Below are positions 2,211 through 63,572 of a stretch of DNA of 64,000 nucleotides, one piece after another; the stretch's first letter is position 1; each line of letters begins with the position of its first letter. The translations under genes and the position numbers were made by a program. Source of the stretch: Luidia sarsii. Taxonomy: Eukaryota > Echinodermata > Asteroidea > Paxillosida > Luidiidae. The notes under the pieces were generated by a model. It ran no database searches and had not been told where the DNA came from. It saw nothing but the letters and a program-made list of their open reading frames with translations. The stretch lies in NCBI GenBank assembly GCA_949987565.1, contig OX465102.1, forward strand, positions 18,178,968 through 18,242,967, written 5' to 3'.

Positions 2211-3534
2211 AGCTTACAACTGCAACACAGATACAATGCTGAACCAAAAGACAATGCAAGTGTATGTACGTGGAAGACGATGCCCTTGAAAAATAGAACA
2301 CGACACCACAAATAAAGGACAATTTGAAAAATGCCAAAGAAAATGATCAGAGCTGAAGACCTTGGCTTATTGTACCAGCACTCTAACACCTGAGCTACAT
2401 GTACATGTACACTGTACATGTATGTACACGAATGTACATGTACATGTATCCAGCCTTTAGATAACAGCCTTCTAAAAGAGTCAGAAGCCCTTCAGAAATA
2501 AAAGACTTTCATTTTGGATGTGGGTGTCATTTTGCAGTAGTCTTTTATATTTGGTGTTGTTCATTATTTGTTGCGGTTATTTATTTTTTGAAACTGTATT
2601 GAATTTGTTAGGGCGTTTTCTTCTTACTTTCTGGCATTTTCATTGCTTTTGCAAATTGGTAAGCTAAAACAATTCTACTCATGGGAAGGATCCCCCTAGG
2701 ATCACAACTGATGAGATTTGCATTGAGTCATTTGAGAGAGATTTAGAGATTTCCGTACATCACTCTCAGTCTCAGCTTAAAATTTGATGGTTGTTTTTTA
2801 TGTCCTTTTGGCTGCCCATAGTGGTTGGCGGCTCGTGTCAGATGGGGACTTCTGAGACGCATCAAAGCCACCACCAATATGTCTGCTTCTTTGTCTGCCT
2901 CAAGCGAGGATACTCATTTGATGAGACAAAACAAAACTAAAACTGCTCAGCGAGGTAATATTTCAGGGGGATTTGATTAGAAACCAGCGGGGAGGGAGGG
3001 AGGGAGGGAGGGAGGGAAAGAGAGGGGTTTGGGCTAGCACCTCTGGGCTAATCATGTCCCTGGTGCTAATGAAAACATTTCTGAGCAAATACAGAATTTA
3101 ACAGGGCCTGGAATGAAAACATTTCAGTACAGTCTATGTTGCCTGTGTTGTGCAAAAGTTTGGATGGCTGTAATTCCTGTCAAGGTGATGAAACTTTCGT
3201 CCTGGGTGCGTGATAAAAATTACCCAAGTATTTTGTAGCATTTTTTTTTTAAATGCAAAATCGCCCAAAACAAGGCTGAAAAGTCACTTAAGGTAAGGGC
3301 TAGAGAGGGACTCAGGAAGATACCTTGATGCCTGATGGTAAACATGTACATGTACCGGTATACATGTACTGTACATTCATAGTGATGTTTTATTCAAACG
3401 TTTTGATCTGGGCGAGATATTCTTGATGGCAGATAAAGGTCCTCTTGGGATTGAAACTGCTAGGATGTGTTTCCAACTAGTAATCCTTCCTTTGCCAAAC
3501 AGATAGAGGAAAGATAAGATAAGTCTCCTGATGA

Positions 3535-3660
3535 CGGGCAGAGTACACATTACATGTACCTGAAACGTTGAGTTACCGGCTCTTTTCAGAGCCACACTCC
3601 TTCTTGAAAGAGAAGTGCTACCAGTACATGGTGTCACCGCAAACCTTCCACTTAAATAGA
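3535..3660. repeat. Foldback repeat family A with histone-type stem-loop
   Basis: This is one arm of the family A inverted repeat. It contains GGCTCTTTTCAGAGCC at 3578-3593, identical to the consensus metazoan histone-mRNA 3' stem-loop, then ACACTCC and TTGAAAGAGAAG. The flanking arm sequence (CAGAGTACACA, GAAACGTTGAGTTAC before; GTGTCACCGCAAACC after) is shared with all family A copies. Confidence 0.8.
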
Positions 3661-4414: not shown

Positions 4415-4530
4415 CTATTCTCAAAATTTAGTGGGCCTGACGTTTCGATTCTAGCAGGACCTTTCTCAAAGGCAGAGAAAGGTCCTGCTAGGATCGAAAC
4501 GTCAGGCCCACTAAATTTTGAGATTTGCAA
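4415..4530. repeat. Near-perfect family B palindrome
   Basis: Arms of roughly 45 bp are joined by a centre of only a few bases. AAATTTAGTGGGCCTGACG on the left is mirrored on the right with almost no mismatch. A full hairpin is expected if single-stranded or transcribed. Confidence 0.85.
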
Positions 4531-6944: not shown

Positions 6945-9900
6945 CTGAACAAAGACAACGAAACAACAAGCATGATACCAAAACAATTTCATTTTCAATA
7001 GGTCTAACATTTGTCAATGCTAATTTGCTCAATGTTACACATCACAATAACTTCTGCGATAAACTCGGCATTCGGTTTCTGCTTTCCAGAAGGGTAGCAT
7101 AATTTGGAGCGTCAGTAGAAAGAGTGATGAATATGCAAGACACTATTCGTGCACCCGCGCTTATGAATAATTCATTAGCCCTATACTGCATGCACAGTCA
7201 TGTACATGTCGTCATATTGCATATTCATTACTCGTTTTAGTTGACGTCACTATTGCATATTCATCACTCTTTCTACTGACGGTCCTTGTTATGCTACCTT
7301 CCAGAAGGCTAAGATCAAAGCATCATGCCCTCTCAATGTCTTCTGAGAATTTTGTCCTTTAACAAGGTCTTACCAACACCTCCTTGGTCTTACTAAGATC
7401 ATCCAAACTAAATGGAAAGAGACTGACGACGGGCTGAGTACACACTCTCCGAAATGTTGAGTAACGGGCTCTTTTCAGAGCCACACTCCTTCTCGAAAGA
7501 GAAGTGCTACATTGTGTCACCGCAAACCTTCCACTTGGTATTTCCACCATGCAAACCTTTGGACAAGTCTTACCTAAGATCCAAACTTCAAGTCCATTAA
7601 ATTTAGAGTAATATACAAAAATGACATTACCAGAATGCAAATCTCAGAGATTAAGGGCCTGATGTTCTGATCCTAGCAGGACCTCAATCAAAGGAAGGTT
7701 CCGCTGGGATTGAAACATTCAGACCTCTGCATTTCTGAGTCCCGAAAATTGGGGAGAAGTCTGCCTTGAGGGCCTTTCCCACTATAGCAAAAAACAAGGG
7801 TCCTTCGTCATTGGCGACAGTCGTCTAGCGGCTCTGCCTTTGGTGATTTTTTTAACAGACTTTCACACTGCACTACAAACTCTCGTAACTTCACGCTGTA
7901 ATACCGTAATACTGTACTTCACGCTGTCTGCGCATGCAGGGTGCCGCGCTTAAAACAGACATTCTCACACATTGTTTCTCATTACGCGTCCCCGTGATTT
8001 TTAACATCGATACGATTTTTTGGAGGTCTGGATCTCAGTGTTTCGTAACACAGGACCCTCATTTTTGCTTGACATGGATTACTTTCTCACTACTCAGATT
8101 TCTGATTTTATAATATCAATGTTTTTCGTCGCACAGGACCCTCATTTTTTAGCAGTAGTGACAAACAGCCTTTGGAGAGAAATCCGATAAGATTGAGACT
8201 TTGGGTCCTCTAACTTTTAGAGAATGTACCTTCTAGGCAGGTTCTGAAACAGGACAGGATTGAAATGTCCCGCCCTCTATTAAACTGTATGGGAAAAAAC
8301 TGAATGGAAAATTAGAGTACAATTTCCTCATCGCTGGTCAAAAGGCCTTTAAATAAACAAATTTGAAGCCAGACACAATGATTTCCTTACAAGTGCAGAA
8401 CCAATGACTGTGCACTCTTGTGTTCACAGATCCATCGATTGAAGTCTGGAACTTGTTTTCTTTTTCTTTTTCGGTAACCAAGCACAAGCCTGCATCCCCA
8501 TCGGGTGAGGTGCAGCGGGTGTCTAGGAGAGAGTGTGAGTGTTTGAGATTAGTCGTTATTTGTCTTGTCTGCCATTCAGCTTTGGGGTCTTTCACACCTG
8601 GAGGCAGGGACCCCTGTTGACACGGATGTCCTCGGGCCCTGAAAGACTGAGCCAGGTTTTCAAACTGAAAGCCCTGCGACGTTGCGGGTCGCCATCATTT
8701 GAGGGGACCGCTATTACCCCACCCCCCTAGGCTATACGGATGAATAAAGGCAAACGCTGACAATAGCTAGATGATGTTCGGGTACCGGCTTCAGATAATG
8801 TGGGGCAGAGACGGAACAAAAGACAGGCTGGATATATTGATACTGGAATGAAGTCATCCATCTTTTAAGATTTTAATCCCCCTTACCCCTCCGCCCTGCG
8901 GTTTAGTACAGACTTGTTTGGGGCTGCTGATTGGGAGCCACCCAAACTGCCCCGTTGCTTTTTAAGGTTCTGCTAGCTGGGTCTATATTTGGCTCATGGT
9001 CTCACAATGCAAAAACAAAATACACCACTGTCTATATGAACAAGGGGAGTGTAACCTTCAGGTGAATGTACATGTAGGTGGGGGAGGGGACATTTCGACA
9101 ACTATCGCCATGTTTGATATCAAAAGTGTAAGGGCAATTGCACTCCATACTTCAGCAAATGACTCACCTGCATTTTACCCCTGGCAAAGATAGATAACTT
9201 TTTTGGGAATGGAAGGCCACCACCTGGATAACTCAGGTGGTAAGAGCACTGTTGCGTCAAACCAGAGGTCTCTAGTTCAGTCAAATCTTTTTTGCCATTA
9301 AAAAAACAAACACCTGTTTTCCCTTCATGAAAATAACATTTTCAGATGTCTCACATGGATTTCACAAGATGGAATACTACAATTCACACCTTGAGAATGT
9401 TTTCCAAAAACGTTCTGATTTCAGGGGACCTAACACTAACACTTCAATTCTAGTAGATCCTTTTTCAAACAAATCCACATTATGAGGACAATACTGGCCC
9501 ACACTTTTGTTCCATAGCAAGACAATGTTCTCACCCTGCATGAAAACTCAAATGAACATCATTTTCTACTTCTAAAAAAACCACACACCACAAATGTATC
9601 TTATTTCATATCCCTCTGTCCCAGACGATCTCTTGTCAAGTTTCCTGAATAATTTCCTCATAAAGTTCCATGTAGCCTAGATTTCCCACAACTCATACAT
9701 TGTTTGTTTACATGTAAGTATTTACTACCCTGTCCTTATTTCTCAGCCAGCATCAATGTTGTTGACAGGGCTTTGGGAATTGGCTGGGATTTCTGACAAC
9801 CCATTAGTCTTGCTGCCCGTTGGTCCTCTGAGCACTTCTGTTTCTTCTGGGATGGAATAAAGTACATCACAGCGCAATCAATGTTACTTTCTAGACATGT

Positions 9901-12900
9901 AGAGGGTTGTTTCAATTCACTCATGACTTTGCAATCTTGGCAGCATTAAGATGCGCTATCCTCGATTTAGTGGGACAGCAATCTTATATAAGATTTGAAG
10001 GTTTGCATGGTGGGAATACCAAGTAGGAGGTTTGCGGTGACACCATGCATATCATCTCATAAGAGAAGGAGTATGGTAACTCAACGCTGTACTCTGCCTG
10101 ACGATGGGCAGAGTACACACTGCCCGAAACGTTGAGTTACTGGAACTTTTCACAGCCATACTCCTTCTCTTAAGAGATGATATAGATGGTGTCACCGCAA
10201 ACCTCCTACTTACTGTACACATCTTTTAAGATATGTGATTATGTCTCTGTTCTGTCTTTGTCATTCTGCCATTGAGAAATGTCGGGATCAAAATGTCATA
10301 CCTTCTGAATATTTTCTGGAGATTTTGGATAATTTGGGTCAGGTTAGTTAGCAAGTTGTGAGAAAATCTGACTTAAAAAAAAAATGAATCTCAAAAATGT
10401 AGAGGGCCTGACATTTTGATCCAAGCAGGATCTTTCTCAAAGGCAGTACTGTACATGTAATACTTCTGGTAGGATAAAAACGTCAAGCCCTCTAAGATTT
10501 TCATTTGGTCATTGTCAATCAGTCAGTGGGCTGAGAATTGTTTTTGAGATTTTGAAGCAGGTTGCTACAAAATTGCAAACCAATAACAGAGAGCACAAGT
10601 ATGTATGCATGTAGCTACTAGCTACTGTAACTTTAAACTTGTAATCCATTTTTTAACAATTTTGATGTTTTTAAAGCCAATCAAAATATCAAAATAAAGA
10701 AACTTGTCCAACAGTTAGGCCTACTAGGACATGTACAGTGTGTAGGTATGAAATAGCAATGTGCGAAAATGCTATCCTTCATAAATTGCTCAAAATTTCC
10801 ATGTCACTTACAGTGTATCCTTTCCTTTATTAGATTGGAAATGAAATAAAATAATTGTTATTGCAGAAAGCACAGCTAAATAGATTCTGATTATCTGATT
10901 TGAAAGATGTGTCTATTGTCTAACTCTCTGAATGGCCTGACACGTCCAATATGGTCTGTGTAACTGAACATACACAGTGCATGTACATGCAGTTCACCTC
11001 TTTCAACATAGGTCATTCACTCTTAATGATCTGTTGAGATGTGGGATTTCAAAGGACTTTGTTATAAACTCTTGATGTGGTATAAACAAAGATAATTGAA
11101 AAACAGGATGTCTTGGAGGACAAATGGGGTCAGCTTAGCAGGGGCGAGGATTTGTTGATAAATTTTACTCAATTATCTGGAGTGTTCAACCAGATTGGTT
11201 ACTGTATGAATAACCCAAAACAAATCCCCATTAATTTTATTTTTTTATTTTTCATTCAAATTACATACAGAATAGATAGTATAAAAACTAAGAAGCTGCA
11301 TTCACATTGAGTGATCCTTGAAGCTTTGTGGCAAAGTTTACGGCAGGCTGTTGTTGGCATCTGAATGAAAATAAGGATGTGATCCCTCAGGTGGATTTCA
11401 CAAAGCCTTATGATGCATCGCAACTCAACTTACGATGGATTCCGGTAACCCATTGTAACATACACAGTATGGATTCTGTGCATTGCTCATCACCTTCAGA
11501 TTAATCGTATGTCACAATGAGTTTGGTGAAATCCACCCCTGGAGATGCAGGTACAGTACATGTACTGTATGGTACGTAATGCATTGGTAGTTGACTCTTT
11601 GAGAAGGCTACATGTACTATCTAAGGCCAGGATAGTTCAGGTGGTAAGAGTGCTGGTACATATAAATTTATCATAATCCAGTCAAATTTCCACTTCCAGT
11701 CAAATTTTGTATTCTGTTTTAAAAAGCAGAACTTTGTACATGTAGAGGATACCTACCGTACACATGTACATGTACATGCACTGAACATGTACTTTATATG
11801 TTGTACTGTAAGTCACTGTCCTTTTCGTTGCCTGTTTGAAATCGAAGCATCTTTGATAAATCAATGTGAATCAACCCAAAGCAGTGTTTACATTATAAAT
11901 TTCCTCTCAGGCAATCCGGCAAAGCACTGAGCATGTATTACAGTGCTAAACTGCTAATGACATGTCCACCACACCCTCACTGAATTACACTCTCCTCCAT
12001 GCCAAATCATATCACATTCACAACGATGCAACGTGATGCATTATGTACATGTATATGTGTATCTATGATGCAATGTGATGCCCACCACCATACAGATTTG
12101 AATCCACCACACAACCTCGACCAGCTCTTAAGCCTTAGTCCATCGTGGGATGATCCAGCAAAACATTCCAAAACTGTCCATGTAACACTGTATTTCGGAA
12201 CACACAAAATGTAAATTTATGAAAATAAGGCTAAAAATACTGAGATTTCAAAACACGTTGTTGCCTGTCGAACAATCTGCACAGGTTTTTTTTTTACAAA
12301 GTTTTAATATTACGGCCTTTTTACGATCTGAAAGCTCTGAAATATGCACGTGATGTCATCCTTCAGAATTGTGAATGACCAATGAAATCACGCGATTATC
12401 ATCCTCGTTCACATGTAGGTCGAGTGGGTAAGACTGACTGGTTACTTTTTTTAAAATTTAGACCAGGACTTGAACCCGAGACCTCTGGTTTTGCGTGCCA
12501 GTGCTCTTACCATCTGAGCTATCCAGCCCTTCAATCAACTAATCATTGCCAGTATGGGGGCACCATTTTTTTCTTTTTCTTTTGTCTGATTTTTATTTCT
12601 GGCTGATTTTTTTTTTCATTCTTCCATATCATCAAATCAGGGTAATTTGGCATGATAAAAACAGGCCCAGATTTACTATTAGAAAAAAAATGGCCTTGGC
12701 TAGAAGAACGGCCAAACCATTGTTATTTGTTACTGTATGATGAGTACACATCTGACGTAACGATTTGTCCGGCACAAAAGCGTTGACTATTCCAGTGTCG
12801 TTGTCACGCACAAAAACTTTCCAGTTGCGTTTTCAATTCAAACATCGGGACCAGACTCCATTGTTTGGCTTGTGGATGTGTTGGTCTTTGGGGTTCTTTT

Positions 12901-15900
12901 TTTGTCAAACGATATTTGCTTGCAGCATACATGTACATGTAGTTCATGTAGTCGGCCCTTTACAAACAATGTTTGCCTATACTGTGGTGAATGTAAAATT
13001 TGCAGTGGGTCATATCCAAACAGTGTCTGCCCATTTCAATGCAGAGTGGGTCATGTATACAAGTACATACAAGTACATATGTACTGTACAGTACAGGTAC
13101 ATGTACATGCACAGGTATGTACAGTACATGTACACCTGTACGTACCGTACATGTACGTACATACATGTACATGTACGTACGGTACTTGTACATATGCAGC
13201 TCATTGACAGTGTAATCGGTCATATCCAAAAAACATTTGCCTTTACCCCAGTACATGTACATGTACCGGTAGGTGAATACATACATGTACAGTACATGTA
13301 CATGACGTACAGTATGTACATGTACTGTATAATATTTGAACATCATTATGTACATTGTACATGTACATGTACATGTACATGTACATGCAGTACGCTGTCA
13401 CTGTACTGTTTGCAGGGAATGTCTCTGACATGGACACTCTGACCAACAGAGGGCGCTATTCCTAACTGTGGATGCCACAATGTATTCCAGCATAGGGCAG
13501 GCTAATGGGTAATCCCAGGTTTTTTTGGATTTTTTCAAAGACCAGTCTGGGCTCACAGTTTCAGTTCCTCTCATGCACATGCCTCGCATTCCTTGAGGCT
13601 TGCAAGAAACAAAACAACTTCCCCATGCGCAGGGACAAAAGGTTAACAAAACAGAACAGCTTGCTTCTCATCTGAGCTACTGTAGGCCTACATGCACTGT
13701 GGTAGCATAGGCCTACAGTACTGTATCGCTTGTAAAAGAATCTTGTCTCATTGAAAAAGACTTTGATCCTATTTCCGAGTTTTGGGGTGGATAAAATACT
13801 TGGATTTCACATGAAATAACATGGGTATGGGGGAACAGCTGATAAGTAGAAAGTTTGCGGTGACACCATGCACAGTACATGTACACGTACATGTACACGT
13901 ACATGTATGTACACATACTGTATGTACATGTGTGTTGTATCATTGTTCATGTACATGTACATGAAGCACTTCTCTTTCAGGAACGAGTGTGGCTCTAAAA
14001 AGAGCAGGTAACTCAAAGTTTTGGGTAGTGTGTATTCTGCCTGTCAACAGGAGACTGTACACACTAGCCGAATACAGGTAGAGTACACACTATCCGGAAC
14101 GTTGAGTTCCCGGCTCTTTTCAGAGCCACACTCCTTCTTGAAAGAGAAGTGCTACATGTACACGTATGATGTCAACGCAAACCTCCCACTTAGTACAGTA
14201 TTTCCACCATGTAAACCTTCAAGTCTTATAATAACACCTGATGAGTTTCCATCTCTTGAAATATGAAAAAAAATATGTAGAGGGGCCGATGTTTCGATCC
14301 TACGTACAGGTAGCAGGACCTTTCTCAGAGACAGGCAGAATCTGCCTCCGAGAAAGGTCCTGCTCGGATCAAAATGTTGGGCCTTCTAAATTTGTGAGAT
14401 TTGGATTTCATTCATTTAAGTCTGTACAAAGCAGTTGGCAACATTTTGAACAGTGTATACATGCTACACTGTACTTTAAGGATTTTCATGCTTAAAAAGC
14501 AATTTTGTGTGATTCAGCAGCTTTATGAAATTTCCATGCCAGGGTACACTTACTATTGCTTGGCTGCCTTTTTACATGTTTTATGTTCTTATCTGTCAAA
14601 TAACCCACAACATACAGTAACATGAAATGTACATGTACATGAGTAAATGTTGGCTAGGCCTACATGTACATGTACATGTACAGTATGTTCATAAAGTATG
14701 TTGTATTATAATTGTACATTGTACATGTACACGTGCACAATGTTTATGAAGAAAATGGTACGAGTAACATTGTCTTGCCCAGTTAAGAAACAATGGACAG
14801 GGATACACTAATACATGTAGGCCTATATTCTCATGCACAGTAAATGTGTACACAGTGTATGTAGTGTACTGTACATGAACATGAACATTTGCTTGCAAAA
14901 CTGAATACCCCAAATACCTTCATGGCTGATATCCCATCAAGAATTCAAGAAAAAACAATGAAACCTCAAACATTCAACAATGACAGCGTCATTTTTTCTT
15001 TCCCTAGAAGACCTTTGTCATACATTAACATGTAGTTATAGACATGCACATGTATGTACACGTGTATGTGAGTTGGCTATTTAGTTTATTTGCTTACCGA
15101 CAACAAGAATGTTTCTGCCATGTTCCATGGATGGCACGCAAGGCCAGAGTCCATGTTCTCACAGAAATGATTAACCTGGATATCATGTTCTTCACATTGT
15201 ACGGGCACTCCAGTTATCGTTTTGCATTCAGCCCCTCCTAAGGTCAATTCCTCCGAAATGTTTAGAGCCCGGTCGGATGTCTCGATCCTAGCAGGACAAA
15301 GTATAAAATCATGTGATGATGCACACTTCATGCACTCAACGAAAATGAGTAGCTTCTCGCAGTCCTTTTCCACACACAGGACAGCTGAAAGTTGCGGTTG
15401 ACAGAAAATTATCAAAAACTTACCGGTACCTCATTTTCTAATTTTGGTTTAAATTGCTTTGTCAGTGTTCATATTTTCATGTTTGCTGATTGGAAACTGG
15501 ATTTTTAATGTACATGTACATGTAAGACTTGAAATAAAAGTCAAACAAACAAAGGAAAAACTGACAGGGAACTTTTGAACAAATTGAAAAATTGGCAAAG
15601 AAAACTTTGACTGTCAGACCGGGAGCAAGTCAAAGTTTTCTTTGCCAATTTTGCAAAGCTCTTTAAATAAAAGGCAGATTGGTGGTATACATGTAAATCC
15701 CTGAAAGACCCTGATCATGATTTTTACGCCAATCTGGCTCATTTTTCGCATTCTCGGCGACAGTGCCAAGTTTTATCCAACCTTCTTGAAGATTCCATGG
15801 CTTTTCCGTAAATTCCTGCGCTAAATGCAATTGTACAGTACTTACACAAATTACCGGTATGTGCAATTTGTTGAAGACAGTACAGGGGCGGATATCACAA

Positions 15901-18900: not shown

Positions 18901-21900
18901 GCCCCTTCTCCAGCTGAATTACTCCTGCAATCTTTCTTTTTTTCACCCCAACTGGATGTTGACATGCTTGGCGTCACGCCTAAACCCTACAGCTGCTTTT
19001 TTTTTCTTTTTCGCCGGTCGGGCGCCAAGCGGACAGGGTTGGGCTCTTTGTGACTAATTCTTTTGTGTGCGAGGATTGAGGCGAAAGGAAGAGACATTTC
19101 TTTCTTTCTTGTTTTTTTTTTTTTTTGGTTGAAGTGGAAGGAGGGAGGGAAGAGGTTTCATGACATGATAGCAGCAACCCAATAGGCCATGCCTTCTTGC
19201 AAACTGCAATAGATACAGAATATCTGGACTGAATACCAGTACAGGAAGGATTCGGGAATGTCGTAGTGGCCCTGTGGATGAATGACAGTTCAAATACTGA
19301 GAGTCTGAGGTCCAGTTGAAGGCCATTATCCAAGTGGGCTAGATGGCCAGTTGGATGAACACTAGGCAATCTCAATACCCATTGTATAGGGTAGAGCAAT
19401 CATGGTTTGCTTACGAGTCTTCAAATAAAGCGTTCAAGGAGGTTATTCAAAAAGAGACATTCTTTCCACAACTACTCTTTTTGTGATACAGTGGAACGTC
19501 ACTATAACGAATACGAGTACATCCCGGGATCCATAAAAAATTGTTCGGTATAGCAGTCGGTCGTTATAGCATGTGGCCACATATTTTGTACACAAATATC
19601 GATAGCTCAGGCAGCACAGGCAGGATTCGAACCAGCGACTCCCACTTTCTAGGGCAGACGGGTTTGAATCCTGCCTGAATCTCTGCTCCTCTTTCCTTCT
19701 ATTCTTCCTGTCAAAGCAAAGTTCTTCCAAACTACATGTATCTTTTCTCAAAGCTCAACAGTAAGAGGGCCTTGTGTTTCGATCCTAGCAATAGCAGGCT
19801 GCCAGGACCTTTCTCAAAGCAAAGCCTTTGAGAAAGGTCCTGCTAGGATCGAAACGTCAGGCCCTCTAACTTTTGAAATTTATATATTGCAGGTCATTTA
19901 GTCAGTGAGCAGTTAGCAATGTTCATTTTTTTTTTCTCAAAGCTGATACTTGAACCAAATTGGCAAAGTTTGATCAAATATTTTCTTCCAGCACATTAAC
20001 AATGGAGGAAAATTAACAAACCTCTGCTCTCAGCAAAGATCAATGTTTAACTCGGGAGTTAATGTGTAAACCTATTGCCCCACAAGCAGTATAAGATTGT
20101 CCACAGAAAAACTAGGTTATCCACATTCTTGACTATCACTGTTGTTATACATTTTGGCTGATAAACCAGGGTGTCAGTCATTGGGAACAGGTGTCAGAAA
20201 AACAACCATGCACATGATACACATACATGTACACAGTAGCAACAGTAGTGGGCACAGTGAGGTACATATACAGGTACATGTACAGTGTACTGTACATTAC
20301 AATTTTTTACATGCACCCATACATGTACAATTTGTACATGTACACATACATGTACAATGTACTTTATGTACAGTACTAGTAGTAGTACATGTACATGTGG
20401 TACATGTGGTACATATGGTGATTGGAATGGTCTCAGGCCACTTTAACACTATCCACAACTGGCAAAGCAAATAACTTTTTATGAAGATTTTGAATTTAGC
20501 ATTGGTCTAGGCTAGTCCCTACTCCCTAGAGGCCAAATGGCAGTTGAAGTTGTCTCTAGGGTCGAAGGCCGCTGCCAATGAAGGAGAGAAGGCAGTCTTC
20601 TACCCCTCTCCTACTACGGAATCTCCAGGTTATCGCGGGGGTAATGGCAAGCCTCAACCCCGAGATACCCCGCGTTGGAAATGGTTGCCAGAAGGTTTCC
20701 CACTACACATTTCCAGCCACAGGTTGAGATGAAAAAATTGGCCTTTTCCCCGGGGCTCGTTAACCCTGCTCAAGACCAGGGTTTAAGGATGGAAATCTCG
20801 GGGGTTACCGGCTGAAATGCATGGAATCTTCCTTGCCCCGCTCCCGGGTTAAGCGAAACTCCGGGTTGATGCGACAGACGGGAACAGAAAACTGGGTTAT
20901 CACGAACCTCGGGGTAAGAAATGCTTCCACCTCCAACCAAGTTTGAAATGTGGGGCCTGGAGTCGAACTTGAAGAAATTGGCTGGCCATTAAAAGTGACA
21001 GTCCAGATGGTGAACAAGCTGATCAGAAGTTATGATGGGTTTGGTGAAATCAATGCCTGAAGTTTGGATCCAAGCAGGATCCAAGCAGACATATTGGTCA
21101 AATAGTATGGTAGGGGACCTTTTCAGAGGCAGAATTCTGCTTAGACTGAGCAAGGTCCAGCTACATGTAGGATTAAAACGTCAGGCCCCCTCTACTTTTT
21201 TTTTGCATTTTGTCTTTTTAGTCAGAAAGCAGTTTTCAACATTTGTGTATACTATACATAGATATCCAAATTTCCAATACATGTAGAATGCGATACACCG
21301 ACATCTGCAAACCGAGTGGAAGGGTTGCAGTGACACCATGTACTGTAGCTCTTCTCTTTCGAGAAAGAGCTGGTAACTCAATGTTTCGGGCAGGGTGTAC
21401 CGGTACTCTGCCTGTCATCAGGAGCCACACTCCTTCTTAAAAGCGAAGTGGTACTTGGTAGTCACCACAAACCTTCCACTTAGTGTTTCCACCACACAAA
21501 CCTTCAAGTCTTATCTGCAGACTGACTTTAATGGCCGAAAATGTGGAGGGTGGCCTGCCATTTATATCCCAGCTGACCCAGCAGGACCTTTCTCAAAGGA
21601 ATTACATACGGTATGAAGTGTGGATCCTTGATAAGGGAAGGGTAGAGGGCATGACATTTTCTAATCCCGGCGACCCCTATCAAGGACTTCAAGTTTCAAC
21701 CCAGTATTTCCAGGTTATGATGGATGAAAAGGTCTCAGCCAAGAGGGTTTTTCTCTTCTTTTTGGAGGTGGGGGAGGGGAGAGGAGTTGGACGCCTGTGC
21801 ATGTTGCCGGGGCATTGACCTACAATGACATTACCAGTCTGTTCAGGAATCAGGAACAGACCTGCTTTAGAAGAGAGAAAGAGAGAAAAGGACCCTGATT

Positions 21901-24900
21901 TCATTTCCCTTTTCATGACCAGCGGCTTGAATGGGGCTTATGAAAGGATTTCCTGTGAAAATGGAAAAAAAAAAATGGGGTCTTGATTTCCCATTTAGAA
22001 CCCACTGGCAAAGCAAGGCAGCAAGTGGTTCATATACAAACAGCTTCCGATAAAGGTTAATATCAATACCAGGGGGAGTGATTGAGGAAATGAATATGAG
22101 GAGGAAACGGGCGATACAGGACATCTGGTGAATGACAGGTGATGTCAAATAACGGCAGTGTGTTGTCTGAAGAACTCAGAAGTCCCCCATGCCACTCTGC
22201 TAGGTGCAGGGTTAATCTGGTATTTCGATAAGATCTCTAAAAAATGAGAGACAAAAAATCTATCCTAAAGCCAAAATGTGGCAATCTGCGTAAGACTGAC
22301 TTCAATGACCCCAAAATATACAGATTCCTCTTCCACCTGGCCTGATGTTCCAATTCAAGCAGGACCTTTCTCAAAGGGAGCACTGCCTTTGAGAAAGGTC
22401 CTGCTGGGATCGAAAGGCCAGGCCCCTCTAAAAATGCATCACAATGAACTTCCGCCGACTCATTAATCTAAGCCAAGGAGTTGAAAAAAAATTGACGCCT
22501 GTTGCCCAGGGCGACTGAAAACAGCCAACGGGTCACTGCAGAGCTACTGAATCTTTTTTTTTTTAGAAACATTTACATTTACTGTTTTACTACACATTGT
22601 GCAAACCAACTATTTGGATGATGATATCCAGATAAGATTTGAAGGTTTGTATGGTGGAAATACCAAGTAGGAAATTTGCGGTGATACCATGTACACCTGT
22701 ACATCATAAAGAGAAGGAGTATGGCTCTGAAAAGAGCCGGAAACTCTGGCTCTTTTCAGAGCCATACTCCTTCTCACAACTGAGATGTTATCCAGGCAGG
22801 ACAAGCAAGCAGATTGGGCCTGGGGTGCAGCTAGGATCGAGGAGCTAAAGGCGGTCACACTAGTTGGCGTCAAGATGGTGTCAAGACACGATAGTGGCGT
22901 CAACACACTCAATTAAGTTGCGTTCGAAATTACCAATTAGCAGTACAGCAGACTTTTTATTACTGGCCAAAAAAATGTTTGGGCTTGAAAAAGTGAGATA
23001 AGGCGTACAGAAATTGCCATTCCCATTTTAATTTAAGCACTGCTCTCTCTGAAGCTCCGTAATTGGCAGCCATCTTGCCTCACATTGCTATAGTGCTATA
23101 TGGACCATACCATTATGCTACAGGGGTGATAAAGTCAGCGGATGTGCTACTTTGCGGTGACTCTTTTCAAGATAAAAACACCTTTTTTGTAAATGAAATA
23201 TAACCCAAAACCCGATGCAAATCCTCTCTGATCATATTTATCATAGTCTGGTGTATTTATTTCCGATGTACATGTATGGTACATTCTGAATGTGACATGT
23301 GTTGACACCGTGTTCGCGCCACTATCGTGTCTTGATGCCAATTAGTGTGACCCGCTAAAGGCCTTTTCAGACGACGCTGAAAAAACTTGCAAGGCTTGAG
23401 AAAATGTCCCGTGCCTGAGAAATCTTACAAAAGTGCCATCGTGAGAAAGGTGACCAATGCTTGGTAGTGACAGGCATCCCTGGTGAACCCTTGAGAGATT
23501 TTGTCGCAGGTCCCGACCTCCGCCAAATCTTCCTCTATCAAAGGATTTCTCAAGGGACCCTTGACAATCGATTGTGTGAAGGGAGGAACTGTTTATTGTA
23601 CGACATCCCATGCTATACGCTAAATTCTCTCTCAAACAATGTAAGTTTTTTCAGCGTCGTTTGAAAAGGGCTTACGGTAAGTCCTTGCCAACTAGTACTT
23701 TGTTGTCAACCCATGAATATGAAGTCAATGCAAAATGACTACGGTACTTGCTAGGGCCTAGCTAGGCTAGGCATTTCAATCCTGACGAACCTTTGAGAAA
23801 GCCACTGCCAATATCGTGATTGTAGCATCATGGTCATTCACTGTCATCACCGATGTCATCTTTGTCATCGTTGTCATCATCTTCGTCAACATCACCATCA
23901 CTGCCATCACCATGCAATGCATTGATTGACCATTCACCATCATCACCGTTCACCATCATCACCATTATCCACCACTCACCAGCACCCTCAATACCATCAA
24001 TCATTTCTGTAACAAAGTGAATGAAGCCGCACTCCCATGTTTGGCCCATAATTTCCAGTGACCATGCAACTTGTATGATTTCCCGGTTGTTGACAAAGGC
24101 CCAATATCTCTGGCAGTGTATATTCAGCCGGCAACGGCATCCACAGGGTGGAGCCCAGAATACCAGCTCAGATATTGGTGGGCAACTGGAATGAACACAG
24201 ACAATGAGTGTCCAGTGCTCTACACAGTGTCCGATGTTGCTTTTAAATCGATTTATTATAATAACAAAAGGAAGGGATTGTCTATAACCTTTCGCCACAG
24301 AGAGATATGAAGTCATGTTCATTTAGAACACAAACAGGATATGAAGCAGGACCAACCCTTTTTAATCTTTAACTTCTGACTCTAAGGCTAAAAAACAACA
24401 CTCAAACAAATAACAAAGATAACATTCATTGACAACAGATTTGCCAATAAAATACTGAGTGAAATAGGCCTGGCCCTAGTCCGAGTAACTTGGAAGTTGG
24501 ACCCGACAAGTCACCCTTTTTTATTGAATTTTGCAATTTTGAGGTTCAGGTGACTCTCAACCAAACCTCAAAATTTCAAATTTCGATAAAAAAAAGTTGA
24601 CTTGTCGGGTCCAAGTTACTCGGACTAGCCTGGCCCTAAAAAGTAACTAAGCAAAGCCTTTTCGTCAATTGCATCCCAGCACAAAATAATTACATCATCC
24701 ATCTGGCATTAGGCATTACATCATTACATGGACATATCGGTTAATTCAATTTCAAGCACATTTCAGACGAGATAAATCGAGGAAAAACTGTGCTTTTCCC
24801 CCCTCCGTCTTACCCGTGCGATGGTGAGAGGGCAGCGGTGTTCCGAGCCACCTTTGACGGACAGACCCCAGGGTGCACCGCCTTGCAGAGTCACATCCAA

Positions 24901-28361: not shown

Positions 28362-29455
28362 TAGTCATCTCTTTTGAGATGGAGTGTGGCTCTGAAAAGT
28401 TTTTTTCATAATGACTGAACTCCCAAATTTCTTTTGTGCAAATTAGCAACTTGAATAAGTACGTGTCCCTGAAAGGCACTAATACAAAATGACTTAAGTC
28501 ATACTCCTCCGTCCTTTAAAAAAAGAACATAAAAAAGTAGTAAATCTGTCATTGCAAGAGTGAACAATGTAGTGTCCTGTCTAACTAAAAAGCAACGAGC
28601 ATACGGTACTAATTACCCAGTAATTACAAAACAGGAAGGGCAACCCCTAACTGATTTTATCTTTCAATGATCACAGCCTTTATGTCACAACTCTAGAGTC
28701 TTCCTTGGTCCAAGTCAAACATGATACGCTTTGTGCGTGACAATATTCATTGTACACCGCCCGTTCGGATCGAGAGCAAAAATACGAAAATATTAATTTG
28801 AGTGGTGAGCAAAATATATGCAGTATAAAAATCAGCCGGCATTGTACATGTATGTCAACACAGTGCAGTTCACTTTGGTAAGACTTCAATGCATACACCC
28901 AGCAAATGAAGGCAACATTGTCACAATCTTGACATCAGCACTGTACAGGATATGTAGACATGTTTTGGAAAGCATGTCAATGCATAATTATAAGACAAGC
29001 AATGATAGGATAAGTTCATACGAGGGACCAACTTTGAGACTAAACTCGAATGGGTTACCCCGACTGACAAAAGTTGTCGTTTGGACACAATTTTTGGACA
29101 CAATTTTTGGACACAATTTTTGGACACAATTTTTTTAGCACCATGTGACTAAATTTGAGGCTAACCCAATTGAGTTTAGCCTTGAAAATGAGTGGGTCTA
29201 GTCCTGATCCCATGCCCTGTGGGTGTTCCTTTACGACCCACCACCCACTGTGTTATTGTTTGGACAAGGCTTACCCAGTCTCCATCACACACATCTGGTG
29301 CTGGTGGTCCCTAGTGGGTTGCGTAATCATCGGTGTCAGCGGTATCGTATGAGCGTAAGGGGATTTTGGACTTTGCAGTCAGCTACTCGAACCCCGCTGA
29401 GAAAAAAACTAGTCACCGCAAACTAACACCAAAGCCAGTCCCTCGTCTGAACATA

Positions 29456-30460: not shown

Positions 30461-31098
30461 AAGTGACCGACAAAGTCATTTCCTGAAAATCACCGAAGGC
30501 CAATAAATTGTGAGTGAGTGCTTACACAACAGAGAGATGCGATTGTGAGTGAGCGCTTACGTGACTGGGAGATTCAAGGCAGGGGTGCAGGTGCCCTTCA
30601 TTTTTAGGATTTTAACAGATAAAAATGAGCAGTGTGAGATACCTATTTGACATAAAAATATATAAATAAAAAAATGAAATCATGCCATTTCTAGAAGTCT
30701 TACATCCCTGAAAACAATAGGTTCGGGACTTACAGACAATAAGTAAAATACAGACAATTGTGCATTACAGTGCTTTACAGACATCTCACATCTGTCATCC
30801 ACAGAACACTGAGACAGCATAACCATGATATAAGACATGAGGGTTTACATGGTGCACGTGCACAGTTTGCCTTGACACCATGAAATATGTAAGTCATCTC
30901 TTTCGAGACGGAGTGTGGCCCTGGAAAAGAAGCGGTTAACTCAGTGTGTACTCTGGCCGTCGTCAATCAGAACAAAGACTCGGGCCGATACAAAAAAAAA
31001 GAGGAGTACCAGGAATACAAACGGTTAACGTCCACAGGAGGCATTGATATATATGCAGATGGCTTTTGAATATTCATACTATTATAATGAGCTGCAGG

Positions 31099-37707
<6,609 letters not shown>

Positions 37708-39926: not shown

Positions 39927-42900
39927 GTGTGTTGCCATAGATACAAGCAGGGTTTCCCCTGCGCCCCCTAGGCTCTTTCACTAGGAAGCATACCTAACCC
40001 AACAAATTCCAACATTTGGGCAGAAATAAGGAACCCATTGGTACCCAACCTCACAGAATTCAACAGTCTGCACGTGTTGGATTTTGTTAGGTTGGGTACA
40101 GATGTGTATCATGCATTGTTGCATGACTACAGGGGATTGTCAAGGGTTAGGAGTTGCTTTACCGTCCTTGTCATCCACTATTAGGTAGTTCTCTTGATCC
40201 AGCAAAATTTTGCAGCCCCTCAAAAAAAAAAAAAATTTAGGCATACCAGATTTTGAAGTAAATACCAAAAAACGTTTGCAAACAGTGAGCCTAAAATGAC
40301 CTGCAATACATAAATCTAAAAAAAAAAAAAAAAAAAAAAAATATCGAAAGTTAGAGGGCATGACGTTTCAACACTGCCTTTGAGAAAGGTCCTACTAGTG
40401 CTAGGATCACAATGTCAGGCCCTCTACATTTTGAGAGATGTGATTACTCTAAGTGGAAATTAGTCTCTGTCTCTGAAATAGTGTGGCTCTGAAAAGAGCC
40501 ACACTTCTTGAAAGAGAAGAGCTACATGGTGTCAGAGCCACACTTCTCGAAAGAGAAGAGCTACATGGTATCACTGCAAACCTTTCACTTAGTATTTCCA
40601 TCATGCAAACCTTCAAGTCTTATCCTGTGATTACTCTAATAGCTGGGAGATCCAAAGAGACAGATGAGGAGAGGTTCCTCCAGGCATCGGCGAAGATCCA
40701 CCAGGCAGTGAAGAGACACACCGGCAACGATGCGGACGGGGACTCCTCCTCCTCCTCTGAAGATGAAATTGACAACAGTGAAATCCTGCAGAGTACATTC
40801 AAGATGTACGCTAATGTAACAGGTCAGTATCAGTGAGACATGAAGGTTTGCTCAGTGGTGAAATCTTGCATAATACATTCAAGATGTACAATCACGTGAC
40901 GGCTCAGTATCAATGAGACATGAAGGTTTGCTCGGTGGTGAAATCCTGCAGAATACATTCAAGATGTACACACATGTGACGGGTCAGTACAATGAGGCAT
41001 GAAGGTTTACTCAGTGGTGAAATACTGCAGAGTACATTTAGTTTATTACTTGTGAGTAATAAACTATTTCTTGCACTACAGAACGGTGCAAAAGCCGTGA
41101 CATTTTTTTTCCTTTTTCTATTTTCTCAGATTACCATAGGAGCTAAAACCTTCGTAGGGTTTCTTTTTTGGAATGTTTAATGGTTTAACTTACAAACTGT
41201 GGCAATCTGTTGACCTTTTACCGATGTTGTACTGGGCCTTTGAGCAGCTCTATGCAAATGGGTCCTAGCCCTGTGTTTTTGTTCAGGTTCAAGTGGAGTA
41301 TTTTTCTCTTTGTATGTGACACACAGGTGGCAGTTCAGATGTTTTTGATAAAACCACCCAATATTTACTGGACGCCTGTCAGTCAGGAGCCAACGTATGT
41401 CTCGTGTGCATTGGCAGAGTCAAACGAGTTGATGCTGTGAGTATGTTGCAAATTTTTCATATTTTCTCAAACATTGCTGCAGTCTGTTCAATAAACCTTT
41501 TCGACGTTCACAAAGCATCATGGGTAAAGATGACAAACTGGCCTTTTTTTTTATTGCACAACTCTATGGCGAAGCATGTAAGGTCGTGAATTGTAAAAAA
41601 AAAATTCTCAAAAACTAGATGGAGTTCAGAAATGACACTCACCCAGAAAATTTGTCTAGATACCAGCAACAAAGCAATTTTTTTGTTGAAACGTTGAGTG
41701 GGTAGTTTCGGAGAAAATAGTGGGGATTCCCTTGGTGACTGGATGGCAAAGTCAGCGCGCACATGCTGCTAGCGGCAAGCGGCAAGTACAATGCATGAAC
41801 AGCGCAACACTAGCTGCACGCGTGCACCGCATTTGCCATCCAGTTACCAAGGTAATCTCCACTGATTTCTCTGAAACTACCCACTCAACTTTCCAACAAA
41901 AAATATGGTTTGTTGCTGTTATCTGTACGAAAATTCTGAGATCAACAAAAGAGAGTATTCAAGGTACAGAGTATGCAGTAGAGATTGAAGGATTGACTTA
42001 AGACAAATTTTATTTGCAGATATGGAGTTGTAGTAAATGCTTCTGCATACTCCATCTATCGTGTGTCCAAAAATGGGCGCAAGAGGGCGCCCTGCGGAAT
42101 TCTATCCTGACCGATGACGACCCAGCGGCCCATCAAAGCAGGCTGTGGTCATGGTAAGTTGAACCTTTACCAAACGTTTCCTTTGCTCGTCCTGGTCATT
42201 GGTGAACCACAGTGGGAAGCATTTGATCCCGAATGGAAGTTTTCCCAGGAGGGTTTTGTCGTTCGATCCTAGCCGGAGGCGGAAGGTCTGCTGTAACACC
42301 ATGTAACAGATCTCTTTTGAGAAGGAGTGTGTGGCTCTGAAAAGAATGGGCGCGAATCTAGTGCCTTGTGGAGACCTAGTCCAATAGGTTAAATCAGGTC
42401 TCCACAGGGAAATTGTAAAGGTGTATAGGTCTCCACAAGGTTTTCTCAAAACTGGTATTTGGAAATGACTCAAAAACAGGAAGTTTGTGATGGGTAAGAA
42501 TCTCTCGCAAACTGAAGTGTTACCGGGTATATATAAGGGACATACGGTCCAAATTTCCTACCCAGGAAAGTGAATGTGGTTGAAATGGGAGCTTTCTTAA
42601 AACATTGTTTCTCGTTTGGTTGTATAGTGCACAAGAACAAAGCAATGTCTCCACAAGGATAAAAAGATTAGTATGTGTGGTTCGTCCATTGTGTATTCTG
42701 CCCACCGTCAGGAGACTTTGGTGTCACCGTAGACCTTCCACAAAATTGTCTATCATTTATCTTCTTCCCCATTTCCCTCCTTTCCATTCCTCTCCCCGAT
42801 TTTTCATCAGTCCAAAGTGTCGACACGAGAGGGCTTCGTCGGACGTCCCCAAACGCTACGCCTGCTACTGCGGCAAGGTCGTCGACCCCCCGCTCCATCC

Positions 42901-45900
42901 CTGGCTGACGCCCCACTCCTGCGGCGAAACGTGCGAGAAACCGCTGCAACCAAAGTGCGGACACAGATGCCTCCTGCTCTGCCATCCGGGTCAGTTCATC
43001 CATTTTTTATTTTTACATTTTTTATTCATTGTTTGATTTGTCAAACAAACTTACTGGGAACTTTGGAAAAAAAATTAAAAAATTGGCAATGAAAACTTTG
43101 ACTGGACCGGGACTTCTGAATCCAAGACCTCTAGATTAATGTACCGGTGCTCTTCCATCTGAGCTACATGTATCCAGCCCTCAGATGTTGGCTTCCCTAA
43201 TAGTCAACTAGTCTTTGCTGGGGTGGGGGCGCCAGTCAGAAGCAATTCAACCATTAATCGCCGTACAGTATATCTCCATGGATCACACCCACACTTTCGT
43301 TCAGATGCAAACAACCAATTGTTGTAAACCTGGCTACAGCAGCTCGGGGATCACACAAAGAGGATGCAGCTTTTTCAATTCAAGTCAAACAAACCAAGGA
43401 AAAACTGACTGGGAACTATTGATCAAATTGAAAAATTGGCAATGAAAACTTTGACTGGACCGGGACTTGAACCCAAGACCTCTGGATTAACCTACCAGTG
43501 CTCTACCATCTGAGCTACCCGGCCCTTAGATGGTGGCCCTTCCTAATAGTCAACTAGTCTTTGCCGGGGTGCGGGCGCCAGTCAGAAGCAATTCAACCAT
43601 TAACTACGGTAACTACTGGATTATCTGCCATCCCTCAGGCGGAGTTGTAACTATCCGATCACAGCTCGTCGCCTAAGTTTGTGCTTTTAACTTTCAGGCT
43701 GCAGGCCTGAGGAAGGGGATGGGATAGCAGGCATGTAAGACTTCCGGAAATTTCAGGATTTCCGGAATTGGTGTGATTTCATTTTTTTTTTTTGGGGGGG
43801 GGGTCAAACAGGTATCTCAAACTGCTAATTTTTATCTGTTAAAACCCTAAAAACTGAAGGGTGCCTGCACACTTGCCGTGAATCTCTCAGTCATGTAAGC
43901 GCTCACGTAAGCGCTCACTCAGAGTCACATCTCTCGGTCATGTAAGTGCTCACTTGCAGTCGCACAATTTATTGGCCTTCAGTGATTTTCATGAAATGAC
44001 CTTGTCGGTCACTTACATCCCTGGGATGGGCAAGATAGCAAAAAAGAAAATAAATTGTTTTTGAGTTTGAGTTCTGAATCAGCGAATAACAATGGTTTGC
44101 TTACTTACACAGGCCCCTGTCCCCCGTGTCCCAAGATGGTGCGTTCCGCCTGTCATTGTGGTCGTCAGGCCCCACAGCCAAGACGTTGCAGCAGCAAGGC
44201 TTGGTCCTGTGGTCAGCCCTGCGGCAAGACGTTGTCGTGCGGCCAGCACTCCTGCCAGCAGCCGTGCCATGCCGGTAAGGAAAGAACTCCATTCCTTCGT
44301 AGAGGTGACCTCTTCCAGAGCTTGTAAATGTCAGCCGAGTATGGTAGTGGATTAAGAGCAAAAAAATATGTGGTTACCAGCAAGGAGGTCACTGGTGCCC
44401 TGCACAAGACCACCAAGTTGTCTGCACATTGTCACTGGTGCCCTGCGCAAGGCAACCGGTGCCCCGCCCAATACCACTGGTTCCCTGCACAGGGCAACCG
44501 GTGCCCCGCCCAATACCACTGGTTCCCTGTACCGGGCAATCGGTGCTCCGCCGAATACCACTGGTTCCCTGCACAGGGGAACCGGTGCCCTGCCCAATAC
44601 CACTGGTTCCCTGCACAGGGCAACCGGTGCCCCGCCCAATACCACTGGTTCCCTGTACCGGGAAATCGGTGCTCCGCCGAATACCACTGGTTCCCTGCAC
44701 AGGGGAACTGGTGCCCCGCCCAATACCACTGGTTCCCTGCACAGGGCAACCGGTGCCCCGCCCGATAACACAGGCCTCAAACATACATCAAATTAAAGCT
44801 CATTAAATGGTCTTTCCATTGGTGTGTGAAGAAAAATTTTGAGAAATTGCAACTTAAGTACCTTTTTTTGCAGAGTGGGTCACAAATGTTAAGAATTGAG
44901 TTCATGAGCGCCAGTCAGTTCGGAGGTAACAGTAGTCATTCTGCTTCTGATAAAAGGTCCAGCTAGGATTGCAAAATGTCAAGCCCTCTTAAACTTCCCC
45001 TTTCTCCTCCCTCGCAGGTTCGTGCGAGTTATGCCCCAGGACCAGCCAGCAGCGATGTCGCTGCGGCCGACTGTTTGCCACCAGAGAGTGTGCATCGCCC
45101 GACTGGCAGTGCGGTCTGGTTTGCGGCAGACTGCTGTCGTGCAAGCATCACGCCTGCCAGCAGGTCTGCCACGCCGGGCCGTGCGGGGACTGTCCCAGCG
45201 CCGGAGAGAGGCAGTGTCCCTGCGGGAAGACCAGTGAGTTGCAGTGTCTCAACAACGTAGAAGGGGCCCGATGTTTCGATCCCAGTAGGGTCTCTCTCAG
45301 CGGCTTTCTACCTCGTTGGGATAAAAATTTAGTCAGCGAAACGGAGGATGACGATATATATTTTGAAGATGGCTACCGGAAACTTTGTAAAGACGCGCGC
45401 TTGAGGTCATCGGGTCAATGCACAAAAGGTCGTGTAAAGCGCCCTTATGAGCCACAGTATTGACAGCTCAGTGATTGTCCCCCGCGTCACGGTTAAGTTA
45501 CCCGAGTCGAGAGTCCAAGTGCGGACACCGGTAATATTTGCCCATTTTCTATTTACCCATCGGCTCGGTAAAATCCCTGGAAAAAAAAGTCCAGTGCGGA
45601 CAGGGCTTATGGCTTAAGACCTACAGAACGCTGTGCAGTTCTTACAATAGGCAGTGTCAATTTAATTCAGTAATTAATTAATTCATTAATTAATTTATTA
45701 ATTCGCCCCTGTATTTTTTTTATAGCTTCTCTGTGATTTTTTTTTCTGCATACTGAGGCTTTATGACTTTTTGGCCAGCTTTTTAGGCACATTTTGACAC
45801 CAATTTTTATTAAAATTGGAGATGCCGTTCTCTGACAGTGAACATTTTTCAGGGCCAAAGTGTAGTTTGATGCATTGTTTTCCATCAAACTACATAAAAG

Positions 45901-62560: not shown

Positions 62561-62635
62561 GAGTCACAACATGCTTAACTCAGGTTGGACACGATGGGCA
62601 GTTGTGTCTGCCCCAGGCCAAGCATTCAGCCATGA

Positions 62636-63225
62636 ATGGCCCATACCGGGCACCTTGGCCTTGTAATGGCCTATACCTGGCACCTTGGCCTTGTAATGGC
62701 CCATACCGGGCACCTTGGCCCTGTAATGGCCCATACCGGGCACCTTGGCCCTGTAATGGCCCATACTGGGCACCTTGGCCATGTAATGGCCCATACCGGG
62801 CACCTTGGCCCTGTAATGGCCCATACCGGGCACCTTGACCCTGTAATGGCCTATACCGGGCACCTTGGCCCTGTAATGGCCCATACCGGGCACCTTGGCC
62901 CTGTAATGGCCCATACTGGGCACCTTGGCCATGTAATGGCCCATACCGGGCACCTTGGCCCTGTAATGGCCCATACCGGGCACCTTGACCCTGTAATGGC
63001 CTATACCGGGCACCTTGACCCTGTAATGGCCCATACCGGGCACCTTGGCCCTGTAATGGCCCATAACGGGCACCTTGGCCATGTAATGGCCCATACCGGG
63101 CACCTTGGCCCTGTAATGGCCCATACCGGGCACCTTGGCCCTGTAATGGCCCATACCGGGCACCTTGGCCCTGTAATGGCCTATACCGGGCACGATGGCC
63201 CATACCGGGCACCTTGGCTCAGCGG
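62636..63225. repeat. 30-bp minisatellite with 150-bp higher-order unit
   Basis: About 19 units of CCCATACCGGGCACCTTGGC plus CCTGTAATGG. Marker variants recur every five units: ATACTGGG/CCATG at 62760, 62910 and (diverged) 63060; TTGACC at 62820 and 62970; CCTATA at 62850 and 63000. It lies 350-940 bases past the ETS stop. Long open frames on both strands follow from the unit being divisible by three. Confidence 0.95.
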
Positions 63226-63572
63226 ACATCAACTCTGTGTTTGCAGTCCCCCAGCATGAATTTACAAAATCTATTGGACATTTTCCCCCAATTATTTCAT
63301 TCTGTTTGAATCTGCCCCCATGAATTTGATGCAGCACTCACGTGGCACTAACTGCGGAACCAAGTTCTCTTCTGTGGGACCAAGTTCTCTTCTTTGAATA
63401 GGATCCAATCCATACCAGCTCAAGGCAGGCCATACCCGAACAAATGTCTTCGTCAGACGGCTGAAAGCAAAACAAAATTCAATCTGACAAAAAAAAAACC
63501 CCACTGAACTTTGTGATAGGAATGAAGCAGGAGTCTTACGTCGGCCCCTTCAGGTCAAGCCAGGACCAAGAC

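Follow-up and report, generated by a model that had tools for sequence, protein, structure and literature searches.

A foldback repeat of the sea star Luidia sarsii suggests a Penelope-like element borrowing the host's histone RNA-ending machinery

The window, that is the whole stretch of 64,000 nucleotides analysed from Luidia sarsii (contig OX465102.1), contains dispersed copies of a repeat family in which a 16-base sequence of histone stem-loop type had been noticed. A window scan finds the exact 16-mer at all six positions, and on the strands, given by the earlier note. There are 6 exact matches and 10 at up to 3 mismatches; the shuffle expectation is 0.36 and 0 of 100 shuffles reach 10. 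The site that drew attention lies in a foldback. Its right arm, with a tail, matches the family profile on the plus strand at 14069-14228 and carries the reported stem-loop at 14112-14127 (exact 16-mer, matched by RF00032) and an HDE-like core, AAGAGA, at 14142-14147. Its left arm on the minus strand (13960-14056) has a stem-loop with 2 mismatches at 13991-14006 and an HDE-like core at 13971-13976, and an outer piece at 13828-13874 (minus) also matches the profile. This arm (13828-14056) has apparently been split by a TACATG-rich microsatellite at 13875-13959.

Two copies of pseudo-LTR (pLTR) type are single arms on the plus strand. The one at 3522-3654 (profile match, E 8.4e-35) has no tail; it contains a hammerhead-like core CTGATGA at 3528-3534, the exact 16-mer at 3578-3593 and, 14 nt past the stem-loop, AAGAGA at 3608-3613, for which the duplex with a U7 candidate has -11.9 kcal/mol. 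The one at 7423-7572, a profile match with a tail, contains CTGACGA at 7423-7429, the exact 16-mer at 7467-7482 (28.8 bits with RF00032) and AAGAGA at 7497-7502. Further foldbacks lie at 9989-10223, with a degenerate stem-loop at 10142-10157 and an HDE-like core at 10172-10177; at 21309-21512, with a right-arm tail and ATCTGCA at both 21303-21309 and 21513-21519; and at 22634-22794, with stem-loops at 22723-22738 (minus) and 22748-22763 (plus) and the 7-bp repeat TATCCAG at 22625-22631 and 22789-22795. A rearranged foldback at 40464-40621 has its stem-loop at 40485-40500 (minus) and a 14-bp target duplication, TGTGATTACTCTAA, at 40439-40452 and 40626-40639. The remaining profile matches, all on the minus strand, are a fragment (28364-28399), a single arm (30832-30965) and a degenerate arm (42231-42346). 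Thus the 16-mers starting at 14112, 22723, 22748 and 40485 are in inverted repeats as had been claimed for all six, but those at 3578 and 7467 are in single arms. The downstream order ACACTCCTTC then TGAAAGAGAAG holds exactly for the copies at 3578 and 14112 and differs by one base at 7467 (CGAAAGAGAAG); the copies at 22723, 22748 and 40485 lack it.

Other repeats occur in the window. A second foldback family (4418-4523, 36687-36775 and 14304-14369) has a GAAACGTC-like motif (GGATCGAAACGTCAGGCCC) and, by eye, no histone stem-loop; it is maybe another Penelope-like element (PLE), and in Rfam it draws microRNA matches below the cut-off. Minisatellites with several long open frames lie at 44348-44796 and 62564-63337, and a long imperfect palindrome of 124 bp at 24494-24617.

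The 16-mer is abundant far beyond the window. Genome-wide there are 3,083 + 3,086 = 6,169 exact occurrences in 470.9 Mb, and a variant with a compensated stem, GGTTCTTTTCAGAACC, occurs 8,907 times; the reversed controls of both are 0. The profile gave 19 matches in a sample of 18 stretches of 10 kb, spread over nine contigs and placed at round coordinates, and the matches lie in 6 of the 18; this very roughly extrapolates to 50,000 family arms in the genome.

The modules of the repeat are ordered as a hammerhead-like CTGANGA, a covarying hairpin, GAAACGTY, the stem-loop, AAGAGA, CATGGTGTCACCGCAAACC and an optional tail of about 30 bp ending near AAGTCTTATT. The hammerhead-like core CTGANGA...GAAACGTY encloses a covarying stem II and has an unusual extra C between core and stem II. 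We take the variable N of CTGANGA to be the position that is free in hammerheads; an Rfam search of the repeat gave no hammerhead match. PLE hammerheads are usually minimal and lack helix III, according to the accessible part of PMC6155905.

Many copies consist of two arms placed head to head, and 5' truncated copies are also present. The arms end at different model positions, and copies end at two points, about 50 and 85 nt beyond the stem-loop; counted from the ATG of the hammerhead-like core, the arm ends are at about 110 and 140 nt. Of 30 foldbacks, some of them retrieved through the 16-mer, 27 have a tail on one arm only, 2 have none and 1, a composite, has two. Independent tails would give about half. 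The other arm of the 27 one-tailed foldbacks ends at model positions 110-135 in 20 cases and is shortened in 7. The flanks have at least 9 bp in common in 12 of 44 pairs, compared with 2.1% for swapped flanks; again copies fetched by the 16-mer are included, and several of the 44 pairs are array artefacts without a common word. Clean target duplications of 9-14 bp are found in 10 of the 44 pairs after two matches inside the array at L021 were dropped. A MITE or foldback DNA transposon, for which symmetric terminal inverted repeats and a duplication of fixed length are expected, was rejected in view of the asymmetric arm ends and of duplications that vary between 9 and 14 bp.

This anatomy can be compared with the Anolis PLE, PAc, as far as the available part of its description goes (PMC11167929). 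There, two neighbouring internal sites serve as starts of reverse transcription, with the tail as the interval between them, and both target strands are cleaved and extended. The ORF begins within the hammerhead, the commonest start is 111-118 nt into the ORF, in a stem-loop, and the ORF's first 172 nt are required as template (PMC11167929). No ORF of the present family was recognised next to the copies in the DNA examined, so that PLE membership rests on anatomy, and by its anatomy the repeat looks like a PLE pseudo-LTR.

Several related arrangements were seen in the other loci. A tandem array of units of about 115 bp at L032:676-1414 has the exact 16-mer in three units (676, 791 and 1136), and its spacer to the purine tag is shortened. 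Another array, at L006:782-1432, is built of units of about 29 bp made of the pLTR tail region. The plus strand of L001 carries a different hammerhead-like motif, CTGATGA...GAAACGTC, with no stem-loop in the letters inspected. At L040:6968-7276, in a repeated region, there is a GIY-YIG-like endonuclease frame of some PLE-like element. This frame has 30 protein relatives, one of them named GIY-YIG; a Pfam scan of a longer frame at L040 gave no match, and a PDB search in this analysis gave 0 matches.

The genome's own histone genes provide the standard for comparison. A search with PF00125 gave 150 scored matches from 253 candidates, mostly in a tandem array on contig C18 (6790790-6974565) with a period near 4.2 kb. 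The array unit L051 contains H3, H2B, H2A and H4, and the protein of its H4 reads VTYCEHAKRK, an echinoderm-like form. An amphioxus source was rejected; a search for GFP domains gave no candidate, although it gave none in any control genome either. Further histone units are on C52, and dispersed matches at the score of the array H3 are on C4, C5 and C19; the match on C5 ends like H3. The 3' ends were read from one array unit (L051) and one dispersed H3 (L052). In the array they are GGCTCTTTTCAGAGCC-ATCAAACTTTCCCAAAAGAGA for H3, GGCTCTCTTCAGAGCC-ACCACATTTTCAAAAAAGAGA for H2B, GGCTCTTATCAGAGCC-ACCACAACTTCCTGAAAAGAGA for H4 and GGCTCTGACGGAGCC-ACCACATATTCACTAAGAGA for H2A, and in the dispersed H3 GGCTCTTTTCAGAGCC-ACACATTTTCAAAAAAGAGA. 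The stem-loops of H2B and H4 are one loop base off the 16-mer and the loop of H2A is shortened. The animal's own genome bears out the identification of the 16-mer as a histone stem-loop, since the H3 of the array unit and the dispersed H3 both carry it unchanged. AAGAGA follows 14-16 nt past the stem-loop in these genes.

With RF00032 the five histone ends score 43.2, 38.7, 38.5, 36.7 and 25.1 bits. All six exact copies in the window match over the full model, five with 27.2-31.5 bits and one with 24.7; the best is the copy at 3578, and none reaches the gathering score of 34. The stem-loop of the repeat has the features of this family, with a 6-bp stem, a UUUC-type loop and conserved GG and CC ends; the expected A-rich 5' flank is absent. 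The letters before the stem-loop are AAAC, CAAC and CAATC in the own histones and TACC, CACC, CTCA and CTCC in the repeat.

The 16-mer is not the whole of the likeness to the histone 3' ends of the species, which also takes in the spacing and the core of the downstream element. Repeat copies read, among others, GGCTCTTTTCAGAGCC-ACACTCCTTCTCAAAAGAGA and GGTTCTTTTCAGAACC-ACACCTCTTCCTTTAAGAGA. The distance from stem-loop to AAGAGA is 13 or 14 in 36 of 51 copies, some of them fetched by the 16-mer; 5 have another distance and 10 have no intact AAGAGA. Conservation past the stem-loop was taken from 96 copies not chosen by the 16-mer, with letters in 50-66 rows per column. The counts leave out copies fetched by the 16-mer, L031 (which overlaps L029/L030), the L032 array and the L030 duplicates of L029, and ruined copies may be under-counted because the profile used to find copies contains the stem-loop. 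The same exclusions apply to the counts of changes within subfamilies; the duplicates were still present in the set from which the module order and the conserved blocks were read. Conserved in 11 of 20 columns are A, A, C, T, C and AAGAGA (0.90-1.00), compared with 0.48-0.70 between the conserved letters and 0.36-0.51 in the five columns after AAGAGA. The dispersed H3 equals the repeat at 11 of the 11 conserved columns and at 4 of the 9 variable ones. Aligned on AAGAGA, the other histone ends equal 10 (H2B), 9 (H3), 8 (H2A) and 7 (H4) of the 11, and when the alignment is slid by 1 to 3 at most 8 are equal. Shuffles of the 20 letters reach 11 conserved columns in 0 of 400,000 trials for any of the five histone ends. 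Most of the weight of this match is AAGAGA at the right distance, since the five conserved columns outside it have by themselves a p of 0.027.

For the post-stem-loop sequence of the dispersed H3, 0 of 20,000 shuffles do as well against the consensi of subfamilies A and C; for Ap and B the figures are 1.7% and 1.9%. The C consensus had one T too many here and in the spacer, post-tag and duplex comparisons, and its shorter form was used in folding. In the next stretch, with 8 conserved columns, the dispersed H3 equals 5, H2B and H3 3 each, and H2A and H4 0. When the five histone ends were made into a profile from which the stem-loop was left out, 12 of its 39 matches fell on the family, whose share of the searched DNA is 3.7%. 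Of these 12, 4 had been retrieved through the 16-mer; no match is individually significant, and the best three lie outside the family. Neither the spacer alone nor the post-tag stretch alone gave convincing histone likeness (lowest p 0.047 in 40 comparisons). The earlier note had offered capture of a histone 3' end or chance. The likeness beyond the 16-mer supports a shared signal; given how little the spacer and the post-tag stretch by themselves resemble histone ends, it does not prove common descent, or capture as opposed to convergence.

Pure chance likeness in a DNA-transposon-like foldback appears very improbable. Foldback families with short hairpins are common, which counts in its favour, and the single-feature tests (histone-end profile, spacer and post-tag stretch, duplex) are weak. 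Against chance stands the joint match of stem-loop, spacing and tag, and the asymmetric ends with their duplications of variable length are unlike a terminal-inverted-repeat transposon.

The stem shows a compensated change. The third pair of the stem is UA in 18, CG in 11, UG in 5 and unpaired in 4 of the 38 copies with letters, and the loop is TTTC in 31 of 42 copies. In the alignment of 42 copies (from 48 rows, without two duplicates, window 40469, window 22745, L006 1973 and L006 2683) the named stems are paired in 84.3% of cells, compared with 80.8 in shuffles, and 0 of 500 shuffles are as high. Covariation is 0.140 compared with 0.101 in shuffles (0 of 500 as high) and at most 0.057 in slid versions, although tests of this kind are inflated by relatedness among the sequences, and a small number of events may lie behind many cells. 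Two of the five measures are hardly or not exceptional, namely the 7 pairs changed on both sides (33 of 500 shuffles as high) and the 17 pair types (397 of 500). RNAalifold on the gappy alignment returned 0 consensus pairs.

Slower evolution of the stem-loop than of its flanks depends on the subfamily. It is largely absent in subfamily A, where the stem-loop window ranks 40 of 139 with CpG removed (17 changes in 240), and is seen in subfamily B, where it ranks 7 of 142 on few counts (1 in 228). The decay in subfamily A fits dead copies, and constraint would have acted on source or master elements. CpG columns in subfamily A diverge by 0.28 and the other columns by 0.10, an excess as expected from methylation decay. 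Other blocks of the repeat (CATGGTGTC and CCGCAAACC) are likewise conserved, and the region may thus be constrained for another reason.

The 16-mer could be conserved as coding sequence at the start of a PLE ORF, as the consensus of subfamily A is open to the end of the tail when read from an ATG within the hammerhead-like core. In the GGTTCT subfamilies, however, the distance from the stem-loop to CATGGTGTC is mostly 25, 26 or 27, with 7, 6 and 3 copies in the three modulo-3 classes, while the letters of the stem-loop are unchanged. Coding cannot fix these letters because the distance takes all three frames; coding constraint on the 16-mer was rejected and is hardly credible.

Another possibility is that an element captured the 3' end of a histone gene and carries it as a functionless passenger. 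A single best-matching gene exists, the dispersed H3, with all conserved columns equal and no shuffle as good against A and C. A passenger would however not retain the signal alone. Across subfamilies the spacer and the five columns directly behind the tag are variable (0.36-0.70), but the stem, the loop, TC and AAGAGA keep values of 0.83-1.00 except for the covarying pair, and the stem has changed in a compensated way. With spacer and post-tag parts that by themselves resemble no histone convincingly, a passenger is improbable, though less so than chance.

The host factors that could read such a signal were also searched for. The RNA-binding domain of SLBP is encoded on C14 (52.4 bits). The best U7 candidate in the Rfam search is below threshold, with 26.3 bits against a cut-off of 34 and E 0.27; the 50 letters read comprise TCTCTTTT followed by AAATTTCTCAAG, which resembles the U7 Sm site. 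The proposed comparison with U7 agrees with the histone reading in that this below-threshold candidate pairs alike, and at about the same place, with the own histones (-7.9 to -10.1 kcal/mol) and with the repeat subfamilies (-7.0 to -10.5 kcal/mol). The purine tag of the repeat is at histone spacing and complementary to the candidate; single duplexes have p-values of 0.016-0.10, as shuffled controls reach these energies in 1.6-10%.

The most serious competitor is that the hairpin and AAGAGA form a template structure bound by the element's own reverse transcriptase, with coincidental histone likeness. The hairpins covary and lie in the stretch that corresponds to the template need and start of the Anolis PLE, as far as its available description shows (PMC11167929). 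AAGAGA can also pair in a second hairpin in subfamily A, in another register in B and weakly in C. The idea that AAGAGA is merely an arm of this second hairpin was toned down; the inner helix, in the register tested, is paired in 69.6% of cells. Binding to its own enzyme predicts neither the histone letters in stem and loop nor AAGAGA, ACAC and TC at the positions of the species' own histones. Nor is such a stem-loop seen in the letters inspected of one other hammerhead-like element (L001, plus strand) or, by eye, in the second foldback family of the window. A template structure of this kind is rather unlikely.

The preferred reading, to which we give a probability of roughly 0.58, is that the repeat is a PLE pseudo-LTR and that its signal most likely persisted through use, the master element having relied on SLBP and U7 for a non-polyadenylated 3' end, with a tie to S phase. 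It is based on the sequences of the repeat and of the host genes. The RNA of the element would present in order the hammerhead-like motif, the stem-loop GGYTCTTTTCAGARCC, ACAC, a TC and an AAGAGA able to pair with the U7 candidate. SLBP and the U7 snRNP would form the 3' end in the downstream pseudo-LTR, linking the element to the S-phase pathway of histones. The stem-loop would sit between the presumed hammerhead cut point and the starts of reverse transcription, the copy ends about 50 and 85 nt past it being read as the two starts known from PLEs. In a tandem PLE transcript the stem-loop of the downstream pLTR could end the mRNA, and the upstream pLTR might supply starts from which only short copies of the pLTR arise, like those found here. 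The chief objection is that cleavage after the stem-loop would detach the downstream starts from the template, so that processed RNA could not serve for full-length copies, which would require read-through. Each foldback would then record priming on both target strands, one from each start, and what is left would be roughly tens of thousands of short copies, mostly dead and many of them head-to-head pairs.

The broader suggestion, that a retroelement took over the histone 3'-end pathway of its host so that its RNA ends without poly(A) and in S phase, when copies form, is more tentative, and we hold it at somewhat less than even odds. If true, PLEs with this SLBP/U7 signal would possess a cell-cycle timer and a defined end of their RNA and would compete directly with the histone pathway, and dispersed copies could, where transcribed, titrate SLBP or U7. 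The numerous one-tail foldbacks would document in nature the priming from two starts and on two strands that has been observed in vitro.

Compared with a histone mRNA 3' end, the repeat is similar in stem, loop, spacing, AAGAGA core and complementarity to the U7 candidate, and has ACAC as in the dispersed H3. It differs in having no histone ORF upstream, no A-rich 5' flank and a score below gathering, and in lying within a mobile element. To our knowledge, histone-type 3' processing is found almost nowhere outside histone genes. Retrozymes and other hammerhead retroelements resemble the repeat in that a hammerhead-like core is found in a short repetitive retroelement; we know of no histone signal in them, and we take the inverted arms and the tail to fit PLEs rather than retrozymes. 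Among the papers listed in a literature search, judged by titles, term counts and the beginnings of abstracts, none joined PLEs or other transposons with the histone stem-loop, SLBP or U7. GIY-YIG PLEs have an ORF for reverse transcriptase and endonuclease, whereas the present family is known here without a visible ORF. EN+ PLEs (the Penelope/Poseidon clade, the Pen families of A. vaga and PAc of Anolis) share with the repeat a hammerhead-like motif that starts the ORF region, judging from the accessible parts of their descriptions. These parts also report head-to-head inverted pLTRs with an optional tail of about 30 bp on one of them (PMC3846280) and short target duplications (PMC3846280, PMC11167929). 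The histone-type stem-loop with its AAGAGA tag sets the repeat apart from the PLEs in the same parts of these descriptions (PMC3846280, PMC11167929). The copy ends nevertheless lie at a distance that fits the two internal starts of reverse transcription of PAc, within what is available of its description (PMC11167929).
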